A DNA stretch of 48,425 nt from Komagataeibacter melomenusus. GTDB lineage: Bacteria; Pseudomonadota; Alphaproteobacteria; Acetobacterales; Acetobacteraceae. Shown piece after piece: positions 3,939 to 41,914 of this stretch; the stretch's first letter is position 1; every line of letters starts with the position of its first letter. The position numbers and the translations under genes were made by a program. The notes beneath the pieces were generated by a model that was given only the letters and a program-made list of their open reading frames with translations, was not told the DNA's origin and searched no databases. The stretch lies in assembly GCF_013155395.1 (NCBI RefSeq), contig NZ_JABJWC010000026.1, positions 1 to 48,425 on the forward strand, read 5' to 3'.

Positions 3939-3968
3939 GTTTTTGGTGAAGCTTCTTTCAAAAAGCTT
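3939..3968 (+). repeat. Dispersed double-hairpin repeat, copy A (first arm only)
   Basis: GTTTTTGGTGAAGCTTCTTT followed by a CAAAAAGCTT tail; the arms GAAGCTT and AAGCTT(A) pair around a T/A-rich core. It lies between convergent genes (response regulator and exonuclease III). The second hairpin of the full element is missing or degenerate here. Confidence 0.75.
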
Positions 3969-3990
3969 AGAAGAAGGCTGTCCCGGCAGG

Positions 3991-4785
3991 TCAGCCGTCA
4001 ATGTCGATCAGCACCGGCACGTGGTCCGAGGGCTTTTCCCAGTCGCGGGCGGCACGCAGCACCTCCATGCCGCGCAGGGCGGGGCGCAGGTCGGGCGTGA
4101 CCCATACATGGTCCAGCCGCCGCCCGCGGTTTGACGCGCTCCAGTCGCGGTTGCGGTAGGACCACCACGTATAGAGCTTCTCATCCGGCGGCACGAATTC
4201 GCGCATGGCATCGATGAAGCCGGTCTGCTGCCAGGCCAGCAGGCGTTCGGTTTCCGCGGGCGTGTGGCTGACGATCCGGAGCAGCTGTTTGTGGCTCCAC
4301 ACATCCTGCTCAAGCGGCGCGATGTTCAGGTCGCCCACCAGCACGGTGCGGCGCATGTCACGTGCGGAGAACCACGCCCGCGCCTCCTCCACAAAAGCCA
4401 GCTTGTGGGCGAATTTGGGGTTCTCGACCGGGTCGGGCACATCACCACCCGCCGGCACGTAGAAATCATGCACGTCAATCGCGTTCACCCCCGTGCCGTG
4501 GCGCACGGCGATGTGGCGGCAGTCGCCCTTTTCGCACCAGTCGGGTGTCTCCTCCAGCACGGTTACGGGTTGGCGTGACAGGATCGCCACCCCATTATAT
4601 CCCTTCATGCCCCGGAACACGACATGTTCGAAGCCAAGGGCACGCACGTCAGCAAGTGGGAACAGGGCGTCCGGCACCTTGGTTTCCTGCAGGCAGACGA
4701 GATCGGGCGATGTATCCTGGCACAGCCGGGCGAGAAGCGGCATCCGCAGGCGGAGGGAATTGATATTCCAGGTGACGATACGCAT
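3991..4785 (-). CDS. xth: Exodeoxyribonuclease III (AP endonuclease)
   Basis: 264 residues. It removes nucleotides from 3' ends of duplex DNA and cuts at abasic sites in base excision repair. Visible family motifs, in order: WNINSLR (metal-binding Asn7), CLQETK (Glu34), GYNGVAIL, YVPAGG, VGDLNIAP and the terminal SDHVPV with the catalytic His. The frame stays open 50 codons further upstream, but the canonical MRIVTWN start at 4785 aligns with the family, so the longer start is not used. The gene is divergent from uvrC, another repair gene, with about 380 bases between them. Confidence 0.9.
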   Translation of the reverse strand: MRIVTWNINSLRLRMPLLARLCQDTSPDLVCLQETKVPDALFPLADVRALGFEHVVFRGMKGYNGVAILSRQPVTVLEETPDWCEKGDCRHIAVRHGTGVNAIDVHDFYVPAGGDVPDPVENPKFAHKLAFVEEARAWFSARDMRRTVLVGDLNIAPLEQDVWSHKQLLRIVSHTPAETERLLAWQQTGFIDAMREFVPPDEKLYTWWSYRNRDWSASNRGRRLDHVWVTPDLRPALRGMEVLRAARDWEKPSDHVPVLIDIDG

Positions 4786-5165
4786 ATCGGCTGCATTGCC
4801 GATCCGTGGCAGGCTGACAAGAATATTTTTTTCCCCACAGGGCGCAGCGCAGGACGAAAACAGGAACGAATGGCAAAAGGCAGCTGATATTTCCTGCAAA
4901 ATTGCAATCCATGCATCAGGACACACGGATGCCATAATTTGTCCACCTGTGGGGTTGACAGCCGTGAATCCGGCCTGTTGTGGGGCGGATTTTTTTTCCG
5001 GCCTCCGGCTTGTCCAATATAATTGTTTAAAAACAGTAGGTTGTTGTTAGTGATGTTTTTTTGGGCAATCCAAGTACAGGAACGGAAAACCGCCACCCGC
5101 ACGTTTTTTTCGGCCCCTGCTCCACAGACTTATCCACATTATCGGTGGATGAACGGCTGGCGTCC
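4786..5165. other. Divergent intergenic region between exonuclease III and uvrC, with a DnaA-box match
   Basis: No gene called. The stretch 4960-5060 is AT-rich for this genome and should hold promoters for both repair genes. TTATCCACA at 5130-5138 is a perfect match to the consensus DnaA box, 28 bases before the uvrC ATG. No cluster of further boxes was seen, so it is not an origin. No LexA-type palindrome was recognised. Confidence 0.4.
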
Positions 5166-7052
5166 ATGACAACGGCCATTTCTGACGCACCGACCCGCCC
5201 GGTGGGGGTCGATGCCATCCACCACGCCCTGCGCACCATGCCGCAGGCCCCCGGCGTGTACCGCATGCTCGGTGAAAAGGGGGACGTGCTGTATGTGGGC
5301 AAGGCGCTGAACCTGAAGAAGCGCGTGACCTCCTACACCCATGTCAGCCGCCTGACCGAGCGCCTGCGCCGCATGGTGTCGGAAACGCGCAGCATGGAAA
5401 TCGTCACCACCCATACCGAGGCCGAGGCCCTGCTGCTCGAGGCCAATTACATCAAGCGCATGCAGCCGCGTTACAACATCCTGCTGCGTGATGACAAAAG
5501 CTACCCGTGGATCATGCTGACCGACCGGCACGACTTCCCCCAGATCAGCAAGCACCGGGGCAAGCCGGTCAAGGGGGCGTCGTACTGGGGGCCGTTCGCC
5601 TCGGCCTGGTCGGTCAACCAGACGCTGAACCTGCTCCAGCGCACCTTCCTGCTGCGCTCGTGCTCCGATAGCGAGATGCAGGGCCGCACGCGCCCGTGCC
5701 TGCTGCACCAGATCCATCGCTGCTCGGCGCCGTGCACCGACCGTATCAGCCGCGAGGACTATGCCGAACTCGCCGCCCAGGCGCGCAGCTTCCTGGCGGG
5801 CAAGAACCCGGACATGCGCGAAAAACTCGGCCGCGAGATGGAACAGGCCGCCGGGGCGCTGGAATTCGAGCGCGCGGCGGCCATCCGCGACCGCATACGC
5901 GGGCTTTCGGCCCTGCAGCAGGATTCCAGCGTCATCAACCCCTCCAGCGTGAGTGACGCGGACATCATCGCCATCTGGCAGATTGCGGGGCAGTCGTGCA
6001 TTCAGGTGTTCTTCATCCGTGCGGGGCGCAACAACGGCAACCGGGCGTTCTTTCCCAGCCATGCGCGCGATGAGAACGCGCCTGACGTGCTCGCCGCCTT
6101 CATCGGCCAGTTTTATGATGACAAGCCACCACCCGCCCAGGTGTTCGTCAACCAGGACCTGCCCGAGCTTGACGTGCTCACCGCCGCCCTGAGCCTGCGC
6201 CGGGGCCGCAGGGTCGAGATCCTGCACCCCCAGCGTGGCGAAAAGCGCGGCGTGATCGAGCATGCCGCCCTGAACGCGCGCGAGGCGCTGGAGCGCAGGA
6301 TGGCTGAAAGTGCCGGGCAGGCGAAGCTGTTGCAGGGTGTGGCCGACCTGTTTGGCCTCGATGCGCCGCCCAAGCGCATCGAGACCTACGATAACAGCCA
6401 CATCCAGGGGGCCAACCCTTACGGCGTGATGGTGGTGGGCGGCCCGGAAGGGTTTGAAAAACGCGCCTACCGCAAATTTTCCATCAAGGGGCCGGTCACG
6501 CCGGGCGATGACTTCGCCATGATGCGCGAGGTGCTCGAGCGGCGCTTCCGCCGCGCACTCAAGGACCGCGAGGAAGGCGTGCGCCCCGAGGACTGGCCCG
6601 ACATCCTGTTGATCGATGGCGGGGCAGGGCAGTACACCGCTGTGCGCGGCGTGCTTGATGAACTCGGCGTGACGGGCGTGACCCTGGTGGGCATTGCCAA
6701 GGGGCCGGACCGTGATGCGGGGCGGGAGTGGTTCCATACGGCCGACCGGCCGCCCTTCCAGCTGCCGCCGCGCGATCCGGTGCTGTACTACCTCCAGCGC
6801 CTGCGTGACGAGGCGCACCGCTTTGCCATCACCACCCACCGCGCCGGGCGCTCCAAAACCCTGGTGCGCTCGGAACTTGATGATATTCCGGGCGTTGGAC
6901 CGGCACGCAAGCGCGCGCTGCTCAAGCATTTCGGCTCGGCGCGTGGCGTGCGGCAGGCTGGCCTGGGGGAACTGGAGCATGCGCCGGGCATCAACCGCGA
7001 CATGGCACGGGTCATTTACGGTTTTTTCCATCCCGACTGGACAGGAGAGTGA
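5166..7052 (+). CDS. uvrC: Excinuclease ABC subunit C
   Basis: 628 residues from the ATG at 5166. UvrC makes both incisions in nucleotide excision repair with UvrB. The N-terminal GIY-YIG nuclease is clear (PGVYRM at 29-34, YVGKA at 43-47). It is followed by a UVR motif with the [13 protein letters not shown] pattern near residue 235, the RNase H-like endonuclease region ([19 protein letters not shown]), and helix-hairpin-helix motifs at the end ([20 protein letters not shown]). The frame continues upstream to a TTG at 5061, but similarity of the start to the family favours 5166. First gene of a + strand run into pgsA. Confidence 0.93.
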
Positions 7053-7086
7053 GCGGCTGTCATGCAGATGTGAGCCTGCAGGCTGC

Positions 7087-7103
7087 CTGATAGGCGCTAT
7101 CAG
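7087..7103. promoter_or_regulatory. Perfect 7-bp dyad between uvrC and pgsA
   Basis: CTGATAG-GCG-CTATCAG, 34 bases after the uvrC stop. Its last bases begin a CAGTATC heptamer that recurs at 7135-7141, just before the pgsA start. Could be an attenuating hairpin or protein site; function not known. Confidence 0.3.
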
Positions 7104-7144
7104 TATCTTGGCTTTTCCCCTTTCTTGGTTATAGCAGTATCAGC

Positions 7145-7744
7145 ATGCTTACCGACCTGCCCAACCTCCTGACCCTGTCCCGCATCATCGTGGTGCCGAT
7201 CGTGGTCGCGCTTGTGGTCATTCACACCGCGCAGACCGATTGCGCCGCGTGCGTGCTGTTCATCCTGGCGGGCATTACCGATTATTTCGACGGCAAGCTG
7301 GCGCGGGCATGGAACCAGAATTCGGATCTGGGCCGCATGCTCGACCCCATTGCCGACAAGCTGCTCGTCGGCGCATCGCTCATGGTCATGGCGGGGCTGG
7401 GGCGCCTGCCTTACGGGTGCCTGTACCCCGCCATCATCATCCTGTGCCGCGAGATCCTGGTCAGCGGCCTGCGCGAGTACCTGGCCGCCACGCGCGTGGG
7501 CCTGCCGGTGACGAAACTGGCCAAATGGAAGACCGGATTCCAGATGACGGCGATCGGCTTCCTGCTCGCGGGCGACAGCACGGCAGGGCTGCTGCATATC
7601 GGCTGGCTGCCAGTCAATGTGCTCGGCGCCATAATGATGTGGATCGCCGCCGCCCTGACGCTGATTACCGGGTGGGATTATGTCTCCACCGGGCTGCGCC
7701 ACGTGGGGCGTGGCACCTCGGGCGCCACCAAATTATCTTCCTGA
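7145..7744 (+). CDS. pgsA: CDP-diacylglycerol-glycerol-3-phosphate 3-phosphatidyltransferase
   Basis: 199 residues, integral inner-membrane enzyme making phosphatidylglycerol phosphate, the committed step to phosphatidylglycerol and cardiolipin. The CDP-alcohol phosphotransferase signature DG-x2-AR-x8-G-x3-D-x3-D is complete (DGKLARAWNQNSDLGRMLDP and on to AD), with hydrophobic helices on both sides. Gene order uvrC-pgsA-moaD-moaE is common in Alphaproteobacteria and supports the call. No strong ribosome binding site precedes the ATG. Confidence 0.92.
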   Translation: MLTDLPNLLTLSRIIVVPIVVALVVIHTAQTDCAACVLFILAGITDYFDGKLARAWNQNSDLGRMLDPIADKLLVGASLMVMAGLGRLPYGCLYPAIIILCREILVSGLREYLAATRVGLPVTKLAKWKTGFQMTAIGFLLAGDSTAGLLHIGWLPVNVLGAIMMWIAAALTLITGWDYVSTGLRHVGRGTSGATKLSS

Positions 7745-7831
7745 CCTACATGAAAAATTAACGCCCTTCATGGCTCATCGTCCCTGCGGGCCCACAGGCC
7801 CGCCGGTTTGGCGAGGGGGCGAGGGAAGAGC

Positions 7832-8329
7832 GTGGTACGCAAGGCACTGGTGCTGTCATTGCTGGTGGGGCTGACGGGATGCGGCGGGTTCGGGCCGATC
7901 CTGGCCGATAATACCGAATTGCCTGGCAGCCTGCCCAATACGCCGCGTGCGGAGGGGGAGAACATGCGCCGCGTAAGCGGGCAGGCCCCGCAGGTGCTGC
8001 CCATCGTGCCCCAGGCGCGCAATATCTGGCCCGTGCTGCCTGATGGCCAGGCGGACCTGGCACAGGGGGATGAGGTCGCGGCCATGCTGCCCGGCACCCG
8101 GAACAGGACCGCAGGCGTGGTCGAGCACGACCTGCCTGCAGGGGGCGAGATGCAGATCGGCAACGATGCAGCGGCTGATGGGCTGCCCGGGGAAGTTTCC
8201 GCATTGTCTTCGGGGCAGGGGGCAACGCATAAGGGCGCATCGGATGCGGCGATCATCGTGCCCAATGGCGATGGCAGCACAACCGAGGTCAGCGCCGATG
8301 GCACGGTGCATGAACAGCAGGCCCCCTGA
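7832..8329 (+). CDS. Putative small lipoprotein of unknown function
   Basis: 165 residues. Starting from the GTG at 7832, which has a purine-rich GAGGGA five bases upstream, the protein opens with a basic tip, a hydrophobic stretch and the lipobox LTGC (Cys17), so it should be a lipid-anchored envelope protein. The rest is low in hydrophobic segments and rich in Gly, Ala, Asp and Pro; no domain recognised. A TTG start at 7808 is possible but would push the signal peptide inward. It sits between pgsA and moaD on the same strand, where related genomes often go directly to moaD. Confidence 0.65.
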   Translation: MVRKALVLSLLVGLTGCGGFGPILADNTELPGSLPNTPRAEGENMRRVSGQAPQVLPIVPQARNIWPVLPDGQADLAQGDEVAAMLPGTRNRTAGVVEHDLPAGGEMQIGNDAAADGLPGEVSALSSGQGATHKGASDAAIIVPNGDGSTTEVSADGTVHEQQAP

Positions 8330-8384
8330 CGTGACCCGCCCCTGCGGGGCGCGGTGCCTGCCCTGAGTGGGAGAGAAGAGCGGA

Positions 8385-8639
8385 ATGCTACGCATTCTTT
8401 ATTTTGCATGGCTGCGCGACCGCCTTGGCCGCTCTGGCGAGACGCTGCCCCTGCCGCAGGGCGCGCATTGCGTGCAGGACCTGATTGCGGCCCTGCACGC
8501 GCGTGGCGGGGAATATGCCGCCATCTTCGCCCGGCCCGAACTGATCCGCGTGGCGGTGAACCAGAGTTTCGCCACGATTGCCGCCCCTATTGCCGCCCAT
8601 GACGAGATTGCCTTTTTCCCGCCAGTTACAGGGGGCTGA
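8385..8639 (+). CDS. moaD: Molybdopterin synthase small subunit
   Basis: 84 residues with a ubiquitin-like fold. Its C-terminal Gly-Gly (ending FPPVTGG) is the site that is thiocarboxylated to carry sulfur to the pterin in molybdenum cofactor synthesis. Internal EIAFFPPV matches the family tail. Start ATG at 8385 preceded by GAGAGAAGAG. Followed after 7 bases by moaE, its partner in the synthase heterotetramer. Confidence 0.9.
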   Translation: MLRILYFAWLRDRLGRSGETLPLPQGAHCVQDLIAALHARGGEYAAIFARPELIRVAVNQSFATIAAPIAAHDEIAFFPPVTGG

Positions 8640-8646
8640 GATCATC

Positions 8647-9111
8647 ATGCCGCGTGTCACGATCCGCGTTCAGGCCGAAGCGTTTGATAGCGCTCATGAA
8701 ACCGCGCTGCTGCTGCGCGGGCACGAGGATGTGGGGGGAGTCGCAGCCTTTACCGGAATCGTGCGCGGTGGCGGCGGGCTGGTGGCGCTGGAACTCGAAC
8801 ATTATCCCGGCATGACCGAATCCATGATGCGCCGCATAGCGGAATCGGCCTGCGCGCGATTCGGGCTGGTGGGCTGCACGGTCATCCACCGTGTGGGCAG
8901 GCTGGCGGTGGGCATGCCCATCGTGCTGGTGCTGTGTGCCGCCGCCCACCGCGGAGCGGCGCAGGAGGCCACCGCCTTCATGATGGACTGGCTCAAGACC
9001 AGCGCACCGTTCTGGAAACGCGAGGAATTTGCAAACGGGCACAGCGCCTGGGTCGAACCCCGTGCGCAGGATGAAGCGGCAAAGGCGCGCTGGGGCAGTC
9101 TCACCGCCTGA
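8647..9111 (+). CDS. moaE: Molybdopterin synthase catalytic subunit
   Basis: 154 residues. Converts cyclic pyranopterin monophosphate to molybdopterin with MoaD thiocarboxylate. Family features are plain: GVAAFTGIVRG near the start, LELEHYPGMTE, IHRVGRLAVGMP and the lysine-containing active-site stretch LKTSAPFWKRE. The ATG at 8647 follows a G-rich ribosome site in the moaD tail; a longer start at 8578 would overlap moaD and lacks family similarity. Last gene of the uvrC-pgsA-lipoprotein-moaDE run. Confidence 0.92.
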   Translation: MPRVTIRVQAEAFDSAHETALLLRGHEDVGGVAAFTGIVRGGGGLVALELEHYPGMTESMMRRIAESACARFGLVGCTVIHRVGRLAVGMPIVLVLCAAAHRGAAQEATAFMMDWLKTSAPFWKREEFANGHSAWVEPRAQDEAAKARWGSLTA

Positions 9112-9210
9112 GGCGGGGGGAAGAAAAATTAAAAAAATAATCTTTCCCTAAACGCCTTGACGCTAAGCTTGCCGCTGATTCGAGAGAACGCTCCCCATTT
9201 TCCCGGGCTA

Positions 9211-9251
9211 CATTATCTAGTGCAAAGTGGCATGGAATAGTCCATATATAG
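9211..9251 (+). promoter_or_regulatory. Tandem NrdR-box-like sites upstream of ribonucleotide reductase
   Basis: Two 10-bp cores related to the NrdR box core CWATATATWG lie at 9211-9220 (CATTATCTAG, 8 of 10) and 9242-9251 (CCATATATAG, 9 of 10). Their starts are 31 bp apart, three helical turns, which is the spacing reported for paired NrdR boxes. They lie 86-126 bases before the reductase start. NrdR is the nucleotide-sensing repressor of reductase genes; its gene is not in the window. Confidence 0.6.
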
Positions 9252-9336
9252 GGGCATATCATAAAACCCCGTCCCACCACGCAGGCGCCTGAAAAGCCCT
9301 GCGTGCCTTGGCGCGGGCCGATTACGGAGAATGTAA

Positions 9337-11268
9337 ATGGTCCTGGATGACGTATCCGGCGGCATGGCCGATCGTTCTGCCAACGGGGATGGGTTCGTCC
9401 AGGGAAAGGACAGTACGCCCATGCCTGACACGTCTGACATGCTGGACAGCGTGGTCCAGCTTCCCGGCCATCATCCCGTGCGCGTGGACCATTCCCGCGA
9501 TGCGCTGCTTACGGCATTTGGCAAGGCAACGCTCAACAACCGCTACCTCCTGCCTGATGAGAGCTACCAGGACCTGTTTGGCCGCGTGGCCTCGTATTAC
9601 GGGGCCAATCCCGCCCATGCCCAGCGGCTGTATGACTACATCTCGCGGCACTGGTTCATGCCGGCCACGCCGGTGCTCTCCAATGGTGGCACCTCGCGCG
9701 GGCTGCCCATCTCGTGCTTCCTCAACGAGGCCAATGACAGCCTGCGCGGCATCGTGGACCTGTGGAACGAGAATGTGTGGCTGGCCTCAAAGGGCGGCGG
9801 CATCGGCTCCTACTGGGGCAACCTGCGCTCGATTGGCGAGAACGTGGGCCGCAATGGCAAGACCTCGGGTGTCATTCCCTTCATCCGCGTGATGGACAGC
9901 CTGACGCTGGCCATCAGCCAGGGCTCGCTGCGGCGCGGCTCGGCTGCGGTGTACCTGCCGGTCTGGCACCCCGAGATCGAGGAATTCATCGAATTGCGCC
10001 GCCCCACCGGCGGCGACCCCAACCGCAAGGCGCTCAACCTGCACCACGGCGTGCTGGTGTCGGATGCGTTCATGCGCGCGGTGGCCGATGATGATGAATG
10101 GGCGCTGCTTTCGCCCAAGGACAACACGGTCATCCGCAAGGTTTCGGCCCGCGCGTTGTGGATTCGCATCCTGACGGCGCGCATGGAGCAGGGCGAGCCG
10201 TACATCATCTTCTCCGACCATGTGAACAACGCGCGCCCCGAGCACCACAAGCTGGCGGGGCTTGAGGTCAAGACATCGAACCTGTGCGCCGAGATCACGC
10301 TGCCCACCGGCATGGACCACCATGGCCGCGAGCGCACGGCGGTGTGCTGCCTCTCCTCGCTCAACCTCGAGACGTGGGATGAATGGAAGGATGACCCGCA
10401 GTTCATCGAGGACGTGATGCTGTTCCTCGACAACGTGCTGCAGGACTTCATCGACCGTGCGCCCGATGACATGGAGCGCGCCCGCTACGCCGCCATGCGC
10501 GAGCGCTCGGTGGGGCTGGGGGTGATGGGGTTCCACTCCTTCCTGCAGGCCAAGAACGTGCCGTTCGAGAGCGTTGTGGCCAAGAGCTGGAACCGCAGGA
10601 TCTTCCAGCACATCCGCGCGCAGGCCGATGCCGCCTCGCGCAAGCTGGCCGAAGAGCGCGGGCCGTGCCCGGATGCGGCGGAATATGGCGTGATGGAGCG
10701 ATTCTCCAACAAGATGGCGATCGCGCCCACGGCGTCGATTTCCATCATCGCGGGCAATGCCAGCCCCGGCATCGAGCCGATCGCGGCCAATGTGTTCCTG
10801 CAGAAGACGCTGTCCGGCTCGTTTACCGTGCGCAACCGCCACCTTGACAAGCTGCTGACCAGCAAGGGCCGCAACACCAGCGATGTCTGGTCGTCCATCA
10901 CGCTCAACAAGGGCAGCGTGCAGCATCTCGACTTCCTGACCCAGCAGGAGAAGGACGTGTTCAAGACCGCGTTCGAACTCGACCAGCGCTGGGTCATCGA
11001 GCATGCGGCCGATCGCGCGCCGTTCATCTGCCAGGCGCAGTCGGTCAACATCTTCCTGCCCGCCAACGTGCACAAGCGCGACCTGCACCAGATCCATTAC
11101 ATGGCGTGGAAGCGGGGGGTGAAATCGCTGTATTACTGCCGCTCGCTATCCATCCAGCGCGCCGATGCGGTGAGTGACGGGCAGGAAAAGCGCGACGTGC
11201 CGCCAAAGGATGGTGGCACCCCTCCCGCGACATCGGGTGACTATGAGGAATGCCTCGCCTGCCAGTAA
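9337..11268 (+). CDS. nrdA: Class I ribonucleoside-diphosphate reductase alpha subunit
   Basis: 643 residues. Reduces ribonucleoside diphosphates for DNA synthesis. Active-site residues are recognisable: redox Cys127 (PISCFLN), the Asn315-Cys317-Glu319 triad in NLCAEITLP, second redox Cys near 337, the paired tyrosines in SLYYCRS for radical transfer, and a C-terminal CLAC shuttle pair. The N-terminal 55 residues do not resemble an ATP-cone, so the usual overall activity site is absent. A GGAG precedes the ATG at 9337; a later ATG at 9421 is possible. No beta-subunit gene follows; it must lie elsewhere. The gene stands alone behind paired NrdR-like boxes. Confidence 0.88.
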   Translation: MVLDDVSGGMADRSANGDGFVQGKDSTPMPDTSDMLDSVVQLPGHHPVRVDHSRDALLTAFGKATLNNRYLLPDESYQDLFGRVASYYGANPAHAQRLYDYISRHWFMPATPVLSNGGTSRGLPISCFLNEANDSLRGIVDLWNENVWLASKGGGIGSYWGNLRSIGENVGRNGKTSGVIPFIRVMDSLTLAISQGSLRRGSAAVYLPVWHPEIEEFIELRRPTGGDPNRKALNLHHGVLVSDAFMRAVADDDEWALLSPKDNTVIRKVSARALWIRILTARMEQGEPYIIFSDHVNNARPEHHKLAGLEVKTSNLCAEITLPTGMDHHGRERTAVCCLSSLNLETWDEWKDDPQFIEDVMLFLDNVLQDFIDRAPDDMERARYAAMRERSVGLGVMGFHSFLQAKNVPFESVVAKSWNRRIFQHIRAQADAASRKLAEERGPCPDAAEYGVMERFSNKMAIAPTASISIIAGNASPGIEPIAANVFLQKTLSGSFTVRNRHLDKLLTSKGRNTSDVWSSITLNKGSVQHLDFLTQQEKDVFKTAFELDQRWVIEHAADRAPFICQAQSVNIFLPANVHKRDLHQIHYMAWKRGVKSLYYCRSLSIQRADAVSDGQEKRDVPPKDGGTPPATSGDYEECLACQ

Positions 11269-11279
11269 GGCGAGGGGGA

Positions 11280-11340
11280 AAAGCTTCAAAGAACGCCGCC
11301 TGTTTGAAAAAAGGCGGCACCCGGAAACTTTTATTTTTTC
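11280..11340 (+). repeat. Dispersed double-hairpin repeat, copy B (second arm plus remnant of first)
   Basis: Begins with AAAGCTTC, the tail of arm one, then the arm-two stem GCCGCC/GGCGGC at 11295-11318 around a T/A-rich core, then CACCCGGAAACTTTTATTTT. Lies between convergent nrdA and the methyltransferase gene. The trailing T-run makes it look like a terminator for the + strand; the opposing A/T core could serve the other strand. Confidence 0.8.
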
Positions 11341-11355
11341 AGCATGCCGTTTCGC

Positions 11356-12192
11356 TCAGACCGTAAGCGGCATGCCGTGTTCCAGTATGGCGCGGGCCGC
11401 AGGTGTAAAGCGGCCATCGGCTTCATGCAGCACGAGGCCGGGCAGCATTTCGCTGCCCGCGTGTGAATTCACCCGTCCCTGTACCAGCATGATGCGCGCG
11501 GCCTGCCCTGCGCGGGGCCAGAAGGGCAGCACCCTGATCCGGCCCAGCCGCGCGCCCTCCATGGCCGTGCAGCAGGCGGCCAGCAGGCTGCATGGCAGGG
11601 CCAGTGTCAGCGTGCCGTGGTGGCGTAGCTGGGCGGCCATGGCGCGCACCCAGCCGCCCAGCGCGCCTGTGGGCAGGCGGCGGGCAAGGTCACGCTGGCT
11701 GTGCGGCGAGGCTGACGAGTCCTGCCCATGCCATGGCGGGTTGGCAAAGGCATGGTCGATGCGCCGCACGCCGGGGCCGGACAGCAGCGGGTCATCGGGC
11801 AGGGCAGGCAGGGTGGCATGGCGCACATGCAGGCCATGGCGATGGTTGAGCATGAAGTTGTGCCGGGCCAGCGCTGCGGTGGCATCATCATGCTCCAGCC
11901 CGATTCCGGTCAGCCGGGGTACCCGATTCGACAGGCAGAGCAGCCCCGCACCCGCGCCGCATCCCCCTTCCATGACGGTCTGGCCGGGGCGCGCGGGCAC
12001 GAAAGCAGCCATCAGAACAGGCTCCAGTCCGGTCCTGTTTCCGGTCGAAAACTGGCGATAGACCACCTTTCCGCCCAGCAGGTGACCTGTGGTGACAGGG
12101 TCCATGCCCATGGGGGGAAGAGGCAGGTCATGCGCTGCTCCGTACCGTGTGCCTGTGTGCTCCGGCTTGACCGTTATTCCAGCGCCGCCCAT
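11356..12192 (-). CDS. SAM-dependent methyltransferase (tRNA adenine-N6 / TrmN6-like)
   Basis: 278 residues. A Rossmann methyltransferase with motif I as MEGGCGAGAG near residue 75 and the NPPW catalytic motif (FANPPWHG) near 150, which marks N6-adenine or related amino methyltransferases. The family resembles COG4123 (TrmN6, tRNA1(Val) A37). An early stretch, VTTGHLLGGKVVYRQ, matches that family. Starts are unclear: ATG at 12192 gives 278 residues but has a weak ribosome site, and ATGs at 12111 and 12105 give shorter proteins. Divergent from the polyprenyl synthase gene with under 50 bases between. Confidence 0.75.
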   Translation of the reverse strand: MGGAGITVKPEHTGTRYGAAHDLPLPPMGMDPVTTGHLLGGKVVYRQFSTGNRTGLEPVLMAAFVPARPGQTVMEGGCGAGAGLLCLSNRVPRLTGIGLEHDDATAALARHNFMLNHRHGLHVRHATLPALPDDPLLSGPGVRRIDHAFANPPWHGQDSSASPHSQRDLARRLPTGALGGWVRAMAAQLRHHGTLTLALPCSLLAACCTAMEGARLGRIRVLPFWPRAGQAARIMLVQGRVNSHAGSEMLPGLVLHEADGRFTPAARAILEHGMPLTV

Positions 12193-12237
12193 ATACTCAT
12201 TCTATGTTCATACATTCGGAACCGGGAGAGTAACCTT

Positions 12238-13314
12238 TTGGCCCTAGCAGTTAGTCTGCCGGAATCCGACGAAACGGCAAGTCAGAAAGACGAAGGGGCT
12301 CGCCGCCCGATGGCAGATGGATCAGAAGTCGCCCTGCGCGATCTGGCGGAATATCTTGCGGATGACATGGCGGCGTGCAACCGCGCCATTGTCGAGCGGA
12401 TGGACAGCCCGGTCGCCCTTATTCCCCAGCTTGCAGCCCACCTCGTGGCCGCCGGTGGCAAGCGGCTGCGCCCGCTGCTGACACTGGCCTCCGCCCGGCT
12501 GTGCGGCTACCAGCCCGATGCCACGCACCAGCGCCACGTGGCGCTGGCCGCCTGCGTGGAGTTCATCCACACGGCAACCCTGCTGCATGATGACGTGGTG
12601 GACGAGAGTTCGCTGCGCCGGGGCATGGCCAGCGCCAATGCGGTGTTTGGCAACAAGGCCTCGGTTCTGGTGGGGGACTTCCTGTTCGCCCGCTCGTTCC
12701 AGCTCATGACGGATGATGGCTCGCTCAAGGTCATGAATATCCTCTCATCCGCTTCCGCCACCATTGCGGAAGGGGAAGTGCTGCAGATGTCCACGCAGAA
12801 TGACCTGTCCACACAGATCGATCAGTATCTGGAAGTCATTCATGGCAAAACTGCGGCACTGTTCGCCGCAGCCTGTCGTGTGGGTGCTGTCGTGGCCGAC
12901 CGGGGCGAGGCGGAGGAGCGGGCGCTCGAATCCTACGGCACCAATCTGGGCATGGCTTTCCAGCTTGTTGACGACGCGCTGGATTACGCCGCCGACCAGG
13001 CCCGCCTGGGCAAGACGGTGGGCGATGACTTCCGTGAAGGCAAGATCACCCTGCCGGTGCTGGCGGCCTATGCCGCGGGTTCGCCAGAGGACCGTGCCTT
13101 CTGGCAGCGCGTGATCGAGGAAAGCGAGCAGAAGCCCGAGGATCTTGATCATGCCCTGCGCCTGATCGAGCAGACCGGCGCCATCCGCACCACGTTGGCG
13201 CGTGCGACGGAATATGCCGATGCGGCGCGTGAGGCGCTGTCCATCTTCCCGCCCAGCCGCCTGCGCCAGATGCTGCAGGATACGGCGAGCTACACCGTAA
13301 GCCGCCTGCGTTAG
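12238..13314 (+). CDS. ispB: Polyprenyl diphosphate synthase (octaprenyl/decaprenyl type, quinone side chain)
   Basis: Long-chain trans-isoprenyl diphosphate synthase that supplies the ubiquinone side chain. First aspartate-rich motif HDDVVDESSLRRG, second LVDDALDYA, plus GGKRLRPLL and GDFLFARSF. The TTG at 12238 has GGGAGAG eight bases upstream and gives 358 residues; the ATG at 12310 gives 334 and starts closer to the conserved fold but has a weaker, distant ribosome site. Chain length cannot be read from sequence by eye; Komagataeibacter relatives make Q-10. Ends in front of a double-hairpin repeat. Confidence 0.88.
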   Translation: MALAVSLPESDETASQKDEGARRPMADGSEVALRDLAEYLADDMAACNRAIVERMDSPVALIPQLAAHLVAAGGKRLRPLLTLASARLCGYQPDATHQRHVALAACVEFIHTATLLHDDVVDESSLRRGMASANAVFGNKASVLVGDFLFARSFQLMTDDGSLKVMNILSSASATIAEGEVLQMSTQNDLSTQIDQYLEVIHGKTAALFAAACRVGAVVADRGEAEERALESYGTNLGMAFQLVDDALDYAADQARLGKTVGDDFREGKITLPVLAAYAAGSPEDRAFWQRVIEESEQKPEDLDHALRLIEQTGAIRTTLARATEYADAAREALSIFPPSRLRQMLQDTASYTVSRLR

Positions 13315-13357
13315 CAGGCGGGCCTCATACCTTTTCCAGAATCTGGAAACAAGAAGA

Positions 13358-13435
13358 GTTTTTGGTGAAGCTTTTTTCAACAGGCTTCAGGAAACGCTGC
13401 CTTTTTTCCCAAAAAGCAGCACCCGGAACCGTTTA
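13358..13435 (+). repeat. Dispersed double-hairpin repeat, copy C (both arms)
   Basis: Full-length copy. Arm one at 13367-13388 (GAAGC...GCTTC, with mismatches), arm two at 13396-13420 (GCTGC...GCAGC around a T6/A5 core), then the conserved CACCCGGAAC tail. Lies between convergent ispB and murI. A further small palindrome, TTTCCAGA-TCTGGAAA like, sits just before it at 13333-13349. Confidence 0.85.
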
Positions 13436-14266
13436 CTCTTTGTGTTCGACAACCGGACTGGCCTCAAATGGCCTGGCTGCGTCCTGCTCATAGCCCAGCG
13501 CGGCCAGCCCCGGCCGTAGGGCGGCGAAGTCACGCGGCTCGGCGGTAAAGCAGAACTGGTCGGGCAGGGCAGGTGCAGGGCCATGCGGGGCAGGGCATGT
13601 GGCCAGCACGCGGGCGACCTGCCGGGCTACGGCGGGTGCCGGGTCCAGCCAGGCGACATGCGGTGGCCCGATATCACGCATGGCCTCAAGCAAAAAAGTA
13701 TAATGCGTGCAGCCCAGCCCCACCACGTCGATTGCGCTGCCGCCGGGTTGAGCGAACAGGCCAGCCAGTTCTGTCCTGAGCAGGGCAGGGTCGGGCGGGG
13801 TGCCACGAAAAGCCTTTTCCGCCATGTCAGCCAGTCCCCGCGCGCCGTAGGCGAGCAGGGTGCAGTCAGGCGCAAAGCGGGCGCTGAGGGCTTTCAGGTA
13901 GGGCCTGCGCACGGTGGCGCGCGTGGCCAGTAGCCCGATCGTGCCGGTGCGGGTCTGGTCGGCGGCCCATTTTATGGGGGGCACGCAGCCCACAAAGGGC
14001 ACGTCATAAGCAGCCCGCAGGCTGTCGAGCGCAAGCGTGCTGGCAGTATTGCACGCCACCACCACAACGCTGGGTTGCAGGCGCTCAATGGCCGCCCCCA
14101 CCAGCCGCACGATCCGCGCGCGTAGCGCGGAATCGGGCTGTTCGCCGTAAGGGAATACGGCCGTATCGGCCAGGTAATCGACCGGTATGCCCGGCAGGAG
14201 CAGGCGGAGCTGGGCTACGATGCCCAGCCCCCCAATGCCCGAATCGAAGGCAAGAACGCGCGGCAT
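13433..14266 (-). CDS. murI: Glutamate racemase
   Basis: 277 residues. Converts L- to D-glutamate for peptidoglycan. Both catalytic cysteines are in their motifs: Cys72 in ACNTAST and Cys186 in GLGCTHY; Asp8 and Ser9 in FDSGIGG form the N-terminal signature. The gene follows pyrE by 15 bases on the minus strand, so the two are probably cotranscribed. Its last codons touch the tail of the double-hairpin repeat. Confidence 0.92.
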   Translation of the reverse strand: MPRVLAFDSGIGGLGIVAQLRLLLPGIPVDYLADTAVFPYGEQPDSALRARIVRLVGAAIERLQPSVVVVACNTASTLALDSLRAAYDVPFVGCVPPIKWAADQTRTGTIGLLATRATVRRPYLKALSARFAPDCTLLAYGARGLADMAEKAFRGTPPDPALLRTELAGLFAQPGGSAIDVVGLGCTHYTFLLEAMRDIGPPHVAWLDPAPAVARQVARVLATCPAPHGPAPALPDQFCFTAEPRDFAALRPGLAALGYEQDAARPFEASPVVEHKE

Positions 14267-14281
14267 CGGCAGCCCCGCAGG

Positions 14282-15043
14282 TCAGGCCCCGGCGTCACGC
14301 CTGGCCTTGAGCGCCAGCGCCTCCTCAGCGCTGCCCACCCCGCCATGCTTGGCCGACCATGCGCAGGGGTCTTCAAGGAAGCGGCGGACTTCGGCGGCAT
14401 CCTTTTCCGAGAAATAGGGCTTGCCCGCGCAGGCTTCCAGCACATCCCACCAGGTGCACAGCGCGTGCAGGCTGATATCCATATCCGCCAGCGTGCGATA
14501 CGCACCAGGGAAGACACCGTAGAAGAACACGACGAAGGTGTGGTCCACGATCGCGCCCGCTTTGCGCAGCGCGTTGGCGAACTGCACTTTCGATGAGCCA
14601 TCGGTGGTCAGGTCTTCCACCAGCAGGGTGCGCATGCCCTCGGGCACATCGCCCTCGATCTGGGCATTGCGGCCAAAACCCTTGGGCTTTTTGCGCACAT
14701 AGGCCATGGGCGCCATCATGCGGTCCGCAATCCAGGCGGCGAAGGGAATGCCCGCCGTCTCGCCGCCCACCACGGCGTCGATGCTTTCATAGCCGACATG
14801 GCGACCGATCTTTTCCACCGCCAGTTCCATGATCTTCTGGCGCGCGCGGGGGAAGAAGATGATGCGGCGGCAATCGATATAGACCGGGGATTTCCAGCCC
14901 GAGGTCAGGGTGTAGGGATCATCGGGGCGGAAGTTGACGGCCTTGATTTCCAGCAGCAGGCGCGCGGTCATGAGGGCTGCGTCGCGGTCCCATGCGGTTG
15001 TGCCTGTTGAAAGTCCTGCCCCATTCCCCGTGGCGTCGTGCAT
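14282..15043 (-). CDS. pyrE: Orotate phosphoribosyltransferase
   Basis: 253 residues. Joins orotate to PRPP to make OMP in pyrimidine synthesis. The PRPP-binding motif appears as LLVEDLTTDGSSK, and the TLTSGWKSPVYIDCR and VVGGETAGIPFAAW stretches match the family. The ATG at 15043 has GGAGACAGGG upstream; the frame continues to a GTG at 15088 without support. The C-terminal extension of about 30 residues beyond the usual OPRT length is rich in Ala and charged residues. Upstream gene of a pyrE-murI pair. Confidence 0.9.
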   Translation of the reverse strand: MHDATGNGAGLSTGTTAWDRDAALMTARLLLEIKAVNFRPDDPYTLTSGWKSPVYIDCRRIIFFPRARQKIMELAVEKIGRHVGYESIDAVVGGETAGIPFAAWIADRMMAPMAYVRKKPKGFGRNAQIEGDVPEGMRTLLVEDLTTDGSSKVQFANALRKAGAIVDHTFVVFFYGVFPGAYRTLADMDISLHALCTWWDVLEACAGKPYFSEKDAAEVRRFLEDPCAWSAKHGGVGSAEEALALKARRDAGA

Positions 15044-15215
15044 ACCCTGTCTCCGGCCAAATGAATTGCGTGTACTGAATGTCAGCACAGACGCTTAACC
15101 GCAACAGGGCGGAAAATCCATCTATGTCCGGGCCAATGAAGGCGGAATTGCCAAAAAAAGGCCGCATCGGAAATATAACGTGACCCGATCAGCAGAGTGT
15201 GAGCGTTTGCGTACC

Positions 15216-15244
15216 TTGCCCCCACGGGGTATTCGCTCTAGTAT
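15216..15244 (+). promoter_or_regulatory. Sigma-70-type promoter for the 84-aa protein
   Basis: TTGCCC at 15216-15221 and TAGTAT at 15239-15244 are separated by 17 bases, the ideal spacing. The predicted transcription start near 15251 falls inside the Fur-like box at 15248. Confidence 0.6.
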
Positions 15245-15247
15245 CTC

Positions 15248-15266
15248 AATATTAATAATCATTCTC
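15248..15266 (+). promoter_or_regulatory. Fur-like box overlapping the transcription start
   Basis: The 19-mer AATATTAATAATCATTCTC matches 15 of 19 positions of the classical Fur consensus GATAATGATAATCATTATC. On the minus strand it reads GAGAATGATTAT..., a textbook half-site. Position over the start point suggests iron-dependent repression. Confidence 0.6.
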
Positions 15267-15270
15267 ACTA

Positions 15271-15525
15271 GTGGATCATCGCATCGTGTCTGTTGAAAAC
15301 AGTCGCATCGCCCGCAAATGCGAGCGTGCCGTAATCACCGCCTACCAGGAACTGCGTGGCGTCGGGACAAGCGATGTGTCGGCTTTCCATGCCTGCACGA
15401 CCCTCTACCGCATCCACCACCCCGAATCCTCGCTCAACGAGGCGCGGCGCCTGGTGTCGGAATGGATCGACCATCATGTCATCCAAAAGCGCCCTGGCCC
15501 GACGGCCGGGTGCGAGTGTGACTGA
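15271..15525 (+). CDS. Conserved-looking 84-residue protein of unknown function, probably iron-regulated
   Basis: Not recognised. The protein is soluble and helical-looking with a compact charged pattern (ARKCERAVITAYQELRGVG, then TLYRIHHPESSLNEARRLV and SEWIDHHVI) and four cysteines, two near the C-terminus (GCECD). No signal peptide or membrane segment. Start uncertain: GTG at 15271 or GTG at 15286 (79 residues); neither has a strong ribosome site. A consensus-spaced promoter and a Fur-like box sit immediately upstream and a strong terminator follows, so this is a single-gene transcription unit. Confidence 0.65.
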   Translation: MDHRIVSVENSRIARKCERAVITAYQELRGVGTSDVSAFHACTTLYRIHHPESSLNEARRLVSEWIDHHVIQKRPGPTAGCECD

Positions 15526-15547
15526 CCTGTCGGGGGTGGGGCTGTGT

Positions 15548-15585
15548 AAAAGAGGGCCGGGCATGGATGCGGCCTGCCCTCTTTT
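15548..15585 (+). terminator. Rho-independent terminator after the 84-aa protein gene
   Basis: Perfect 10-bp stem AAAAGAGGGC / GCCCTCTTTT with an 18-base loop, starting 22 bases after the stop codon and ending in TTTT followed by CATG. The A/T-ended stem would also work on the opposite strand. Confidence 0.75.
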
Positions 15586-15604
15586 CATGTGCGTCAGGTG
15601 ATGT

Positions 15605-16346: not shown

Positions 16347-16355
16347 TCTTTTTAA

Positions 16356-21592: not shown

Positions 21593-21601
21593 TGTATAAA
21601 C

Positions 21602-21677
21602 GTTTTTGGTGAAGCTTTTTTCAAAAAGCTTCAGAAAATGCCGCCTTCTTTAAAAAAGGCGGCACCCAAGGGCCGTT
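21602..21677 (+). repeat. Dispersed double-hairpin repeat, copy D (best full-length copy)
   Basis: GTTTTTGGTGAAGCTTTTTT starts the element. Arm one is the perfect palindrome at 21611-21632 (GAAGCTTTTT, TC, AAAAAGCTTC). Arm two at 21640-21663 pairs GCCGCCTT with AAGGCGGC around a T/A core. A CACCC tail follows. It separates convergent aarC and smc by only about 90 bases. Confidence 0.9.
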
Positions 21678-21685
21678 ATGTTTTC

Positions 21686-24600
21686 CTAGCGTGCGGGTTC
21701 GGCATCCACCATTTCGGTCGCGCGTTCGAGGTCAACCGACAGCACGCGGCTGACCCCGCGCTCCTGCATCGTCACGCCATACAGCCGGTCCATATGCGCC
21801 ATGGTCAACTGGTGGTGGGTCACGACCAGGAAGCGCGTGCCCGCTTCCGCCACCATGTCGGCGAGCAGGGCGCAGAAGCGGCCCACATTGGCATCATCAA
21901 GCGGTGCATCCACCTCATCGAGCACGCAGACCGGCGCGGGGTTGCAGCGGAACACCGCGAAGATGAGCGACAGCGCGGTCAGCGCCTGCTCGCCACCTGA
22001 AAGCAGCGAGAGCGTGGCCAGCTTTTTGCCCGGCGGCTGGGCATAGATTTCCAGCCCGGCCTGAAGCGGGTCATCATTGCCCACCATGCCCAGATGCGCG
22101 CGACCGCCATTGAACATGCGGGCAAACAGAGCCTGAAAATGCTGGTCGATCTGCGAGAACACGGCCATCAGCCGCTCGCGCCCCTCGCGGTTGAGTTGCC
22201 CGATCATGCCGCGCAGGCGGGCAATGGCCGATTGCAGTTCGTCGCGCTCATGCAGGATCGTGTCGATCTTGCCCGATGCCTCCTGCGCCTCAAGCTCGGC
22301 GCGCAGGTTGACCGGGCCAAGTTCATCGCGCTGGCGGGTCAGGCGGGCCACCTTGCGGCGCAGCCCGGTCTCGGCATTCACGCTCAGGTCAGCAGGCACC
22401 ACGCCCGCAGGTGGTGTCGAGTCCGCCTGTAGCTGCGCCAGCAGCACCTGTGCCTGCTCGCGCCTGCCTTCGGCGCGGACCACGGCTTCACGCGCTGCGG
22501 TCAGCACCTCTTCTGCCGTGCGGCGGCCCTGCTGCACGTCCGCCATGCGGGTTTCGGCCTGTTGCAGTTCCGCCATCGCCACGTCATGGCTGGCTTCGTG
22601 CTGCGCCAGTTCGGTTGCGATCGCATCGCGCCGCGCGCGCACGGCAACCGGCTGGGGGGCAATGCGCTCATGCTCGGCGCGGGCGTTGTGCAGGCGGGTC
22701 TCGGCGGCTTCCGCTTCAAGGCTTGCAGCCTCCACGCGGGCGGTCCACTGCGTCATGTCCTGAGCCGATGCCTCAAAGCGCTGGCGCAGGGTGGCGTCTT
22801 CCGTATGCAGGCGGGCCAGGGTCTCGCGCTGCTCGGTTTCGCGCAGGCGCAGGCTTTCGGCCTGTTCGCGCAGGCTGGCCAGCGTGTGTTCCAGCCCGCT
22901 CATGTCGGGCAGGGCCTCGAGGCGGCTCTGGGCGGCGGCAACGGCGGCCTGTGCCTGTTGCAGCCCATCGGTCAGGTCGGCCATGCGGGCCTGACGGGCT
23001 TCAAGCCGGGCGCCGGTCTCGCGCATTTTCTGCTCAAGGCCAGCGCGGGCAGTGCGGGCGTGCTCGAGCTGGGTCGTTGTCTCTTCCACCATGATCCGGG
23101 CCTGTTCCAGCGCGTGAGCCGCCTGTGTCGCGGCAGCGGTGGCCTGCCGGGCCGCATCCTCGGCCAGCGCCGGGGCGGGCAGGGCGGCAAGCTGTTCGCG
23201 CCGGGTGGCCAGTTCCCGGCTTGCGGTGTCGTGGTCGTTCGCCAGCCGGGCCTGTTCGGGCAGCAGGGCCTGCAGGCGCGTTTCCGCCTCGCTGTGCCGG
23301 GTTGTTGCGGCCTGCAGGGCGCGGCGGGCCTGCTCAAGGGCTGATTCAGCCTGCTGATGGCGGGTCCGCAGCGCCTTTTCGGCATCCTGCGCCTGCGTGG
23401 CCGCCTGCGCTGCCGCCTGCTGGGCGCGGGCAAGCTGGTCGAGGGCGGGCAGGCTGGCTTCCTGTTCCGTGGCGCGTGCGCAGGCGGCCTCCGCATCCGT
23501 CAGGGCCGCCTGGGCCGTGGTCTGCTGCACCGAGAGCGTGTCGATCTGGGCCGAGATGGTGGCGTGCTGGCGTGAAAGCTCGGCCTCGGCCGTGCGGGCG
23601 GTCTCCAGCGCGTTCTCGGCGGCCATGCGGGCGTTACGTGCCGTCGCTAGGGCTTCGCCTGCGTGCTGGCGGGTGGTTGTGGCGGCTTGTGCCGCCTGTT
23701 CCAGTGCCGGGAGCGCGCCACGCAACTGCTCGAGTTCCGTGCGCAGCGCGCGCAGGCGGCCGAGCTCCTTGAGCCTTAGTGCCGCGCGGTCAGGCAGGTT
23801 GGGGGCCTGCGTGTAGCCATCCCACCGCCATAGCGCGCCCGCGCGGGTCACGAGGCATTGCCCCGGCGTCAGGCTGGCCTGAAGGGGGGCGCCATCCATG
23901 CCATCGGGCAGCAGGCCGGCAGCCCCCAGCGCGCGTGACAGGGCAGGCGGGGCTTCAAGCACGGTGGAAAGCGGCTCGATGCCCGCAGCGGGAAAGGGCG
24001 CTGGTGTCGCGGGCGGCAGGTCATGCCAGGAGCGCGGCGCCGTGCCCTTGACCACCGCCTCAAGCCCGTCGGACAGCACGACCGCCAGCGCGGTTTCCAG
24101 CCCGGCGGGCACATGCAGGCTGTCGGCCAGCGTCGTGCCGTGGGCGGGGTCGGCCTGCGCCTCGCTGTGCAGCGCGCGGGCGAGGCCATCGGCTTCCGCC
24201 TCGAGGCCCGACAGGCTGGCGCGGGCCTCGGTCAGGCGGGCATTACAGGCTTCATCCTCCTTTGTGGCCGCAATCGTGGCCGCCTCGACTGCCGCCATGT
24301 GCTGGCGGGCAGCGTCCAGCGCGGTGCCAGCGGCCTCGCGTTTTGTCACGAGCGCCTGCAGCGCCTCATCGGGCACGGCCTGCGCGCGCAGGCGCGTCAG
24401 GCTGGCAGTCAGTGTATCGACCGCGTCGCGCGCGCGCTTGTGGGCGGCCTGGGCGGCGCGGAGGGCTTCCTCGGTGGCGGCGCGGGTGGCGCGGGCTTCC
24501 TTCAGGCGGGCATTGGCCTGAATTTCGGCCTGTGTGGCCTGCGCACGGGCGTCTTCTGCCGTGGCGCGTTCGGCGCGGAGGGTATCAAGGGCAGTTTCGG

Positions 24601-40962: not shown

Positions 40963-40964
40963 TC

Positions 40965-41820
40965 ATGGGCCAGATCACGACGCTTGAGGAACATGCAAGT
41001 TGCGGCGGGCGGGTTGGTTTTTACAGCCACCCTTCCACCACGCTGGGGCTGGAGGCACGCTTTGGCGTGTTCCTGCCCGCCCGGGCGCTGGCAGGCGCAA
41101 AGGTGCCGGTGCTGTTCGTGCTCGCGGGCCTGACCTGCACGCAGGAGACCTTCCTCATCAAATCCAACGCCGTGCGCTTTGCCGCCCATCACGGTCTTGC
41201 GCTGGTTGCGCCCGATACCTCGCCGCGGGGTGCGGGCGTGCCGGGCGAGGACGCGGCATACGACCTTGGCACCGGGGCCGGTTTCTACCTTGATGCCACC
41301 ACCCCTGCGTGGCGGACGCATTACCGCATGGGCAGTTACATCGATACGGAACTGCCGCAACTTGTGCAGGCGCATTTTGCCATTGATGGCGCAAGGCGCG
41401 GCATCATGGGGCACTCAATGGGCGGTCATGGCGCGCTGGTGCATGCGCTTACGGCGCCCCAGGCATGGAAGACGGTCTCGGCCTTTGCCCCCATCTGCCA
41501 TCCGGCCATCGTGCCGTGGGGCGAGAAGGCCTTTGCCACCTATCTTGGCCCCGACCGCAAGGCCTGGGCACGGCATGATGCTACGCTCCTGCTCGAGGCA
41601 GGCCACACCCACCCCACTACCATCCTGATCGACCAGGGCGAGGCGGACCAGTTCCTGCACAACCAGCTCCGGCCCGACCTGCTGCGTGCGGCGGCAGGGG
41701 GGGGCAGGGCAGGGGCTACAACTGCGCATGCATGCGGGGTATGATCACTCCTACTGGTTCATCCAGTCCTTCATTGCCGACCATATCAACCATCATGCTA
41801 CAATCCTGAATGCCACGTAA
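40965..41820 (+). pseudogene. fghA: S-formylglutathione hydrolase, frameshifted near the 3' end
   Basis: The frame as given stops at 41744 after 259 residues. Its first 244 residues are a normal esterase-fold hydrolase with nucleophile Ser151 in GHSMGGHGAL and the Asp region DQGEADQFL. After a run of eight G (41697-41704) the frame changes: the missing end, [17 protein letters not shown] with the catalytic His, is encoded in another frame that stops at 41820. One G fewer would restore a 284-residue protein. As written the product lacks the catalytic His and should be inactive. Slippage, mutation or assembly error are all possible. Follows frmA by two bases. Confidence 0.85.
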
Positions 41821-41857
41821 TCGGAACGGCATGAGAGATTGCAAATAATGCGTTGAT

Positions 41858-41914
41858 AAAAGTTTTCGGGTGCTGCCTTTTTTTAAGGAAAAGGCAGCAT
41901 TATTCTGAAGCTTT
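41858..41914 (-). repeat. Dispersed double-hairpin repeat, copy E (reverse orientation)
   Basis: Read on the minus strand: AAGCTTCAGAAT, then stem GCTGCC / GGCAGC (41872-41898) around an A/T core, then CACCCGAAAACTTTTAT. Arm one is reduced to its AAGCTTC tail. Lies between convergent fghA and yjbQ. Confidence 0.8.

Follow-up and report, generated by a model that had tools for sequence, protein, structure and literature searches.

Why should one short, self-complementary sequence recur at gene end after gene end? The question is raised by a 48,425-nucleotide (nt) stretch of the draft genome of Komagataeibacter melomenusus (assembly GCF_013155395.1, contig NZ_JABJWC010000026.1, positions 1 to 48,425 of the forward strand), referred to as the window, in which an initial annotation had marked five hairpin-bearing copies of a repeat and had taken them for a mobile or copied bidirectional terminator. 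The repeat is a real and widespread family that resembles miniature inverted-repeat transposable elements (MITEs) and the hairpin-forming doublets of repetitive extragenic palindromic (REP) sequences known as REPINs, and that is undescribed in the open-access literature searched. As to its history and role, we give an even chance to the reading that its core was spread by a MITE of the insertion sequence (IS) type IS5, survived at stop codons, and serves there as an orientation-independent 3'-end structure of messenger RNA (mRNA).

The repeat is a module of 85-90 bp, a three-way junction made up of two hairpins and, closing it, the outer arms (GATAAAAGTTTTTGG / CCAAAAACTTTTATC). Each hairpin has a GC-footed stem and a tip of five to six T, one base and five to six A; the stem is AAGC/GCTT in one half and GCCGCC/GGCGGC in the other. 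The two hairpins recognised at the outset were confirmed, and the supposed tail that followed them (CACCCGGAAACTTTTA) proved to be the 3' arm (CACCCAAAAACTTTTA) of an outer inverted repeat with the 5' arm TAAAAGTTTTTGGTG. Read from either end, the module presents the same half-unit, namely an arm (AAAAGTTTTTGG) and then a hairpin with GC pairs at its base and a T/A tip. The typed consensus folds as a three-way junction on both strands (-40.3 and -40.0 kcal/mol), and copy D of the window reaches -33.3 and -33.9 kcal/mol, a level attained by none of 200 shuffles. Single-hairpin and half copies also occur, and the initial description of the arms as separable was a fair one.

All five copies first described were found again in place by a covariance model (D 90 bits, C 70, B 35, A 31, and E 21 with an E-value of 0.0045), the training set of which included C and D and left A, B and E outside. 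The remaining model matches below an E-value of 1 in the window were only opposite-strand mirrors of B, C, D and E. The arm GTTTTTGGTGAAGCTTTTTTCAAAAAGCTTC gave three window matches at up to three mismatches (copies A, C and D), as compared with none in 100 shuffles. The placement of all five between convergent genes was correct; half of a sixth copy had been overlooked, which the covariance model also missed and which was recognised by its IS5-type end and by reading. Fold z-scores against shuffles were -2.20 for C, -3.37 for E, -1.59 for A and -0.94 for B (32 of 200 shuffles fold as well as B or better); because their folds barely beat shuffles, A and B are decayed copies. The compensating stem change ascribed to C and E is exact in E (GCTGCC/GGCAGC), and five of the six bases pair in C (GCTGC/GCAGC). 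The features are collated in the following table.

Table 1. Copies of the repeat and the associated insertion sequence in the window.
Feature	Position	Strand	Description
Copy A	3932..3997	+	5' arm and hairpin 1, 3' half decayed; overlaps the stop of the - strand gene at 3991
Copy B	11264..11341	+	hairpin 2 and 3' arm, hairpin 1 reduced; neighbours end at 11268 (+) and 11356 (-)
Copy C	13351..13443	+	full length, hairpin 1 imperfect; end overlaps TTA (stop) of the - strand gene at 13433
Copy D	21595..21686	+	full length; fills a 93 nt gap, neighbours end at 21592 (+) and 21686 (-)
Copy E	41849..41935	-	inverted; hairpin 2 and 3' arm, hairpin 1 reduced; best-matching part 41855-41914
Sixth copy, half	121..193	-	left part of a long-form copy, with IS5-type end GAAACTGTTTGAAAA (177-191), flank, 5' arm and one half of hairpin 1; insertion sequence cuts the hairpin tip
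IS5-type insertion sequence, end	1..120	-	protein residues 1-22 at 1-66; insertion point is the sixth copy's hairpin tip

Copy number and position were determined in the 3.64 Mb draft to which the window belongs (146 contigs; hereafter the own genome). By the 97-99% protein identity of one polyprenyl synthetase, this genome is placed near K. nataicola and K. xylinus. The 30-base arm gave 142 matches as compared with none for the reversed pattern, at least one copy being matched on both strands, and the covariance model gave at least 148; the true copy number is probably higher than the model count. These counts bear out the original view of a dispersed, copied and structure-keeping element. 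For the study of position, 841,369 bases were sampled, in which a profile search returned 57 copies at an E-value of 1e-5; the sampled contigs were long ones chosen for their arm matches, and the copy density there is biased. Genes were called with a small purpose-made gene finder, and a copy that reached into a gene end by no more than 25 nt still counted as lying in the gap.

Of the 57 sampled copies, 36 are found between convergent genes and 20 between genes of the same direction; one is in a divergent gap and none is within a called gene. The element-free gap length amounts to 16.4 kb (convergent), 70.8 kb (same-direction) and 36.1 kb (divergent), and the expected number of convergent copies is accordingly 7.6 by gap length, or 9.8 by gap number; none of 20,000 permutations reached the observed value either way. 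The proposed enrichment between convergent genes was thus upheld, and the reported lack of same-direction copies was found to hold within the window only. Since the upstream stop codon is at most 60 nt away from 18 of the 20 same-direction copies (random placement in their gaps would give 9.4, and 1/20,000 placements reached 18), the positional rule is a site directly after a stop codon rather than convergent gaps only. When placement was confined to the upstream half of the gap, 14.5 were expected and 504 of 20,000 placements reached 18. Copies were also present in six plasmid records; phage records contained no match to the repeat.

Some copies form the core of a long form of about 180 bp with the ends GAGACTGTTTGAAAA / TTTTCAAACAGTCTC. 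The triplet TNA (N being any base) stands directly outside 17 of 19 such ends, as compared with 3.6% of positions genome-wide and 5.1% between genes; the 19 ends were hand-selected from 87 rows (23 rows with at most two mismatches, minus four rows from the element's own hairpins) and are not all independent, two being from one plasmid copy and one pair being orthologous. Six of the 19 coincide exactly with a called gene's stop codon, one orthologous site (gap 104) accounting for two of them. On the plasmid long-form copies (L182, L183) TTA is found on both sides. A Novacetimonas plasmid contains an IS5 copy (L218, about 885 bp) that carries GAACCTGTTTGGAAAATCG at one end, its near complement at the other and TAA on both sides, and that encodes a transposase of the IS5 family. 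The long form resembles a MITE of such an IS5-type sequence, and the repeat as a whole probably spread as a MITE, terminal repeats being present on the long form only. Within the draft genome, a search for an intact IS5 copy with long-form ends yielded only a truncated one (L197/L211), the intact ones being located on plasmids; no target-site duplication was found among core-only copies, and no pair of empty and filled sites was found at all.

According to the favoured reading, the repeat would be a small non-autonomous mobile element whose core consists of two inverted half-units with nearly the same sequence and fold on both strands. In Komagataeibacter it would have spread at least partly as the core of the longer MITE, moved in trans by an IS5-type enzyme. 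The stop codons TAA and TGA are TNA sites; insertion there would duplicate the stop, and copies at gene ends would survive because the stop is recreated, while copies elsewhere would be lost.

Other candidates for a parent were discarded. An IS630-type parent, suggested by an IS630 gene next to a plasmid copy, was rejected, as the two seem only to adjoin each other; the genome contains a single DDE_3 match. An autonomous element bounded by the arms of the core itself was not evident in 1.99 Mb of loci, some of which overlap. Nearly all of the 89 partnerless arms belong to a core or a remnant, about three being due to chance (L150 17267, L078 17192, L079 17206), and three arm pairs spaced by 3.0-3.4 kb are the arms of separate cores. 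Inverted GAGACTGTTTCAAAA ends about 5 kb apart with TAA outside both (L190, C33 43922; L191, C33 48964) perhaps delimit a larger transposon with the same type of end.

The covariance-model search, extended as first suggested to other Acetobacteraceae, gave matches in 29 genomes out of a family sample of 200. Named loci with the repeat are from Komagataeibacter and Novacetimonas (including one copy in Gluconacetobacter entanii, which was counted with the latter). Beyond these, the genera designated g68, g21 and g34 share the architecture and carry stems that are different and compensated. Matches numbered at least 49, at least 110 and at least 7 in three g68 genomes, at least 105 in the g21 genome and at least 87 in the g34 genome, many places being matched on both strands and counted twice. 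Arms and T/A tips are much alike in all of them and the stems differ, in g68 even within one genome; 25 of 29 g68 hairpins have at least five pairs beside the tip, as compared with 10.4% for shuffled partners, with 11 different 5-nt stems among the well-paired ones. All of the 17 g68 copies examined lie within 22 nt of a stop codon, as do 9 of 12 placed g21/g34 copies within 27 nt, with one further copy at a locus edge; the copies positioned were among the best-scoring and not a random draw. The set comprised 27 loci; L156 and L171 (weak or at a contig edge) were kept out of it, and the other omitted loci repeat included places. L173 and L118, being one g68 place, entered the stem count once. 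Several g68 copies are longer: L119 and L178 measure 137-138 nt, with an additional segment of about 35 nt separating the two hairpins, and several other G187 matches are about equally long.

Turnover was followed by comparing the gaps of contig C80 with those of three sister genomes at 92-94% DNA identity. Where the gap could be aligned, the copies of the own genome were retained in 16/16, 15/16 and 10/11 cases. Both orientations were encountered at 5 of 20 comparable sites (four convergent, one tandem); in gap 34 the core is reversed and the flanks match on both sides. Window site C is in + orientation in the window, in L071-L074 and in N. hansenii, and in - orientation in L075, L076, L077, L079 and L082, with L078 and L080 assigned to neither. 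Flipped orthologs are about as similar as unflipped ones (0.89 and 0.89; paralogs 0.84), which would be compatible with inversion of the core in place. Since flipped pairs rank lower when the linker alone is considered (mean percentile 0.63 vs 0.83), the flips could also stem from replacement by another copy; in-place inversion is assumed, provisionally, in the favoured reading. The element also decays, with internal deletions at gaps 104, 117 and 131. Per-site change between sister species was lowest in the T/A tips (0.07), intermediate in the arms (0.12-0.19) and 0.22 in the linker.

A role at the mRNA 3' end is plausible, being favoured by the position of the copies, by the two-strand symmetry, by the compensated stems across genera and by the smaller number of other strong hairpins in gaps that contain the element. 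The core would form the transcript end of either neighbour, most likely as a barrier to 3'-to-5' exonucleases and as an aid to termination, and pairing would be kept while stem sequences drift because the core works in this manner. Covariation among paralogs of the own genome exceeded that in shuffles (score 0.151 vs 0.131; 23 vs 13 cells changed on both sides; 0/500 shuffles each).

For the hairpin comparison a cut-off of -22 kcal/mol was used, which 28 of 130 random genic 80-mers reach; a cut-off of -12 kcal/mol was dropped after 127 of the 130 had passed it. A second strong hairpin was present in 12 of 36 convergent gaps of the own genome with the element and in 25 of 42 without it. At the window sites (gaps of 20-320 nt; site B being represented by the window and L071-L074 only), 10 of 29 gaps with the element at sites A-D, window included and element masked, had a strong hairpin, as compared with 37 of 46 element-free gaps of other species at sites A, C and D (site C only 3/12).

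Several results weigh against this reading, and they concern both function and origin. The own-genome hairpin comparison is confounded by the sequence left over (median 48.5 nt with the element vs 83.5 nt without), short element-free gaps having a strong hairpin in 5/9 cases. In gaps of at least 100 nt, canonical terminators show no clear depletion near the element, with 6/53 element-flanked ends, 45/236 ends of gaps without the element and 7/14 ends with the element distal. G-U as compared with A-C combinations by transcript strand gave no clear signal (36:20 in the same sense and 58:60 in the opposite one). Pairing among paralogs is scarcely above that of shuffles (90.7% vs 89.8%), and only 15 of 52 ortholog double changes leave both sequences paired. 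The stem test is weaker outside g68, with 40/60 vs 26.0% for shuffled partners in the own genome (five stems) and 14/28 vs 20.4% in g21/g34 (six stems), and three of the 12 placed g21/g34 copies stand in divergent gaps. Among sister species the element is no better conserved (0.846) than the rest of its gap (0.862), element-free gaps giving 0.891. No copy was found in 11 Gluconacetobacter loci of about 21 kb each (G. entanii excluded). As to the route of spread, a Gluconobacter plasmid IS5 copy with both ends has unequal flanking triplets, and on a K. xylinus plasmid IS5 copy no second end was seen. Long-form flanks, called above a 95% background cut-off, accompany 9 of the 57 own copies on the left, 10 on the right (about three per side being expected by chance) and only three on both sides; with so few copies keeping them, the IS5-type route is for most core copies no more than a possibility.

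Some of this would be expected if the repeat were purely selfish DNA of MITE or REPIN-like character, the stop-codon position resulting from the TNA target together with the loss of harmful insertions, and the hairpins serving transposition and not the RNA of the host. We regard this as possible, though on balance somewhat improbable. It accommodates the IS5-type ends that the long form has and the TNA beside them, the copies on plasmids and in the divergent gaps of g21/g34, the decay by internal deletion, and a conservation that does not exceed that of the flanking DNA. It accounts less well for the fact that most core copies are without IS5-type ends, yet many stand a few nt from the stops on one or both sides, or for g68 copies that are well paired with different stems and of which all 17 examined are at stops. 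The retention of the C80 copies in the sister genomes, where no new wave of insertion was seen, also argues against it.

Starting again from the mRNA 3'-end reading, a bolder version can be formulated, which we consider unlikely: a dispersed three-way-junction RNA, symmetric on the two strands, would serve several Acetobacteraceae genera as a regular module at gene ends in place of canonical terminators. Stems would drift with compensation and arms and T/A tips would stay fixed, implying a dedicated factor that reads tips and arms, and turnover would proceed in place within the arms, independently of orientation.

The slowly changing tips bear on a further explanation as well, in which supercoiling between convergent genes makes the hairpins extrude from the DNA, where they act as landmarks read by nucleoid proteins, topoisomerase or transposases. 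An IS5-type sequence at the start of the window interrupts the sixth copy at its hairpin tip, and several related plasmid matches of this sequence are annotated as IS5. Fifteen matches of the same IS end were found in the genome (L220-L234), all within about 130 bases of the end of a sequence stretch; 13 are at the T-run tip of a core hairpin or remnant, one is elsewhere in a core and one is beside a canonical terminator. The 13 were counted by reading the rows, the automatic label having given 11 "in element". TNA adjoins only 5 of the 15 ends. The putative other end of this IS occurs in two copies in the local data, both at tips, and among 18 other Komagataeibacter genomes one has the IS end, which adjoins the element rather than lying inside it. 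Either the IS reads the T-run sequence or it meets the hairpins as DNA structure; if the T-run sequence is all that it needs, the tip insertions lose their weight as evidence for extrusion. The low rate of change in the tips and the opposite orientations at fixed sites would suit a landmark, but no binding factor is known, and the flips could be replacements. We consider this explanation improbable.

That the repeat is a canonical bidirectional intrinsic terminator copied around the genome, as first proposed, is the least probable account and very doubtful: the position after stops, the symmetry, the A-run before and T-run after the outer stem, and the lack of any other scoring hairpin outside the element in gap D of the window and in five scored site B gaps (where little sequence is left) would agree with it, but the layout is the reverse of the canonical one (a point that also counts against the 3'-end role), the foot being GC-paired, the tip T/A, and the T-runs standing in the tips and, in the case of the last, inside the outer arm instead of directly after a GC-rich hairpin, a terminator scan of window positions 3000-22500 gave 12 sites vs 13.3 in shuffles and touched only the end of D among the four copies there, and several gaps with the element contain a canonical terminator besides.

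A terminator or mRNA 3'-end function is plausible for the element. Were the 3'-end role true, the element would set the transcript ends of many genes in cellulose-producing strains and would be a ready, orientation-independent part for strain engineering; in these acetic acid bacteria, which are used in industry, the repeat numbers well over a hundred copies. Its flips at fixed sites, its compensated stems and the insertion of the IS at its tips also make it a good natural system in which to ask whether cruciforms arise in vivo and how a MITE can turn into a gene-end signal.

Among known systems, bacterial interspersed mosaic elements (BIMEs) have been proposed as DNA-structure landmarks read by proteins. 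Binding of several proteins is reported in this connection (PMC2817692). REPINs, as far as the cited portion of their description goes (PMC3116915), have in common with the present repeat two inverted half-units able to form hairpins or a clover, an extragenic position, a high copy number and compensatory changes; the repeat differs in its foot, GGTG/GGGTG in place of the GTAG/CGTC tag, and in the IS5-type ends of its long form. The REP-like character noted initially is therefore limited to the layout of a pair of inverted hairpin units, extragenic and at high copy number. The consensus foot contains no GTAG or CGTC tag, and the REP-associated tyrosine transposase family (RAYT-type, PF01797) had no match in the own genome (a draft of 146 contigs), on which ground membership of the RAYT/REPIN group was rejected. 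The 13 element-bearing relatives gave one PF01797 match above the cut-off (open frame of 140 amino acids) and one weak match. CGTC repeats are missing in Acetobacteraceae according to the section of the survey cited (PMC3733652).

Further parallels, each taken from the relevant part of the source, are found with MITEs in general and Correia elements (PMC10969869), which are likewise short, with terminal inverted repeats, a matching insertion sequence in the lineage and no reading frame noted; for Correia elements inversion has been reported. Correia elements lie mostly upstream of genes and carry promoters, whereas the present repeat follows stop codons, and its conserved three-way core is kept even where terminal repeats are missing. 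The Streptococcus pneumoniae rho-independent terminator-like repeat (SPRITE), as outlined in the same source (PMC10969869), is also dispersed and suspected of making RNA 3' ends; the present repeat is not a canonical terminator, a distinction drawn from the description. Hairpins in chloroplast spacers (PMC2903610) include inverted repeats whose inner part occurs in both orientations among relatives, with a suggested role in mRNA stability, according to the passage cited; those are single-locus plastid spacers, whereas the present repeat is a dispersed bacterial family. No published description of the repeat was found in the open-access literature; of three papers matched by the sequence GGTGAAGCTTTTT, at least two are unrelated by title. 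In Rfam the window had no match above a gathering score, and five loci gave six matches at E-values up to 1, all far below the gathering scores.

Some individual sites may be recorded in addition. In two convergent gaps of C80 (47241-47384 and 64558-64704), a canonical-looking terminator stands by one stop and the element by the other, also in sister genomes; in G213, a single-hairpin version replaces the element in the gap at 64558-64704. Mini versions with a single hairpin (about 45-60 bp), the same arms and alike flanks were found in three genomes (L134 8351, L142 7810, L046 9337). At site C of K. swingsii (L080 2368-2483), the gap contains a long palindrome consisting only of the GCCGCC half-unit, a pattern that copying of one half onto the other would produce.

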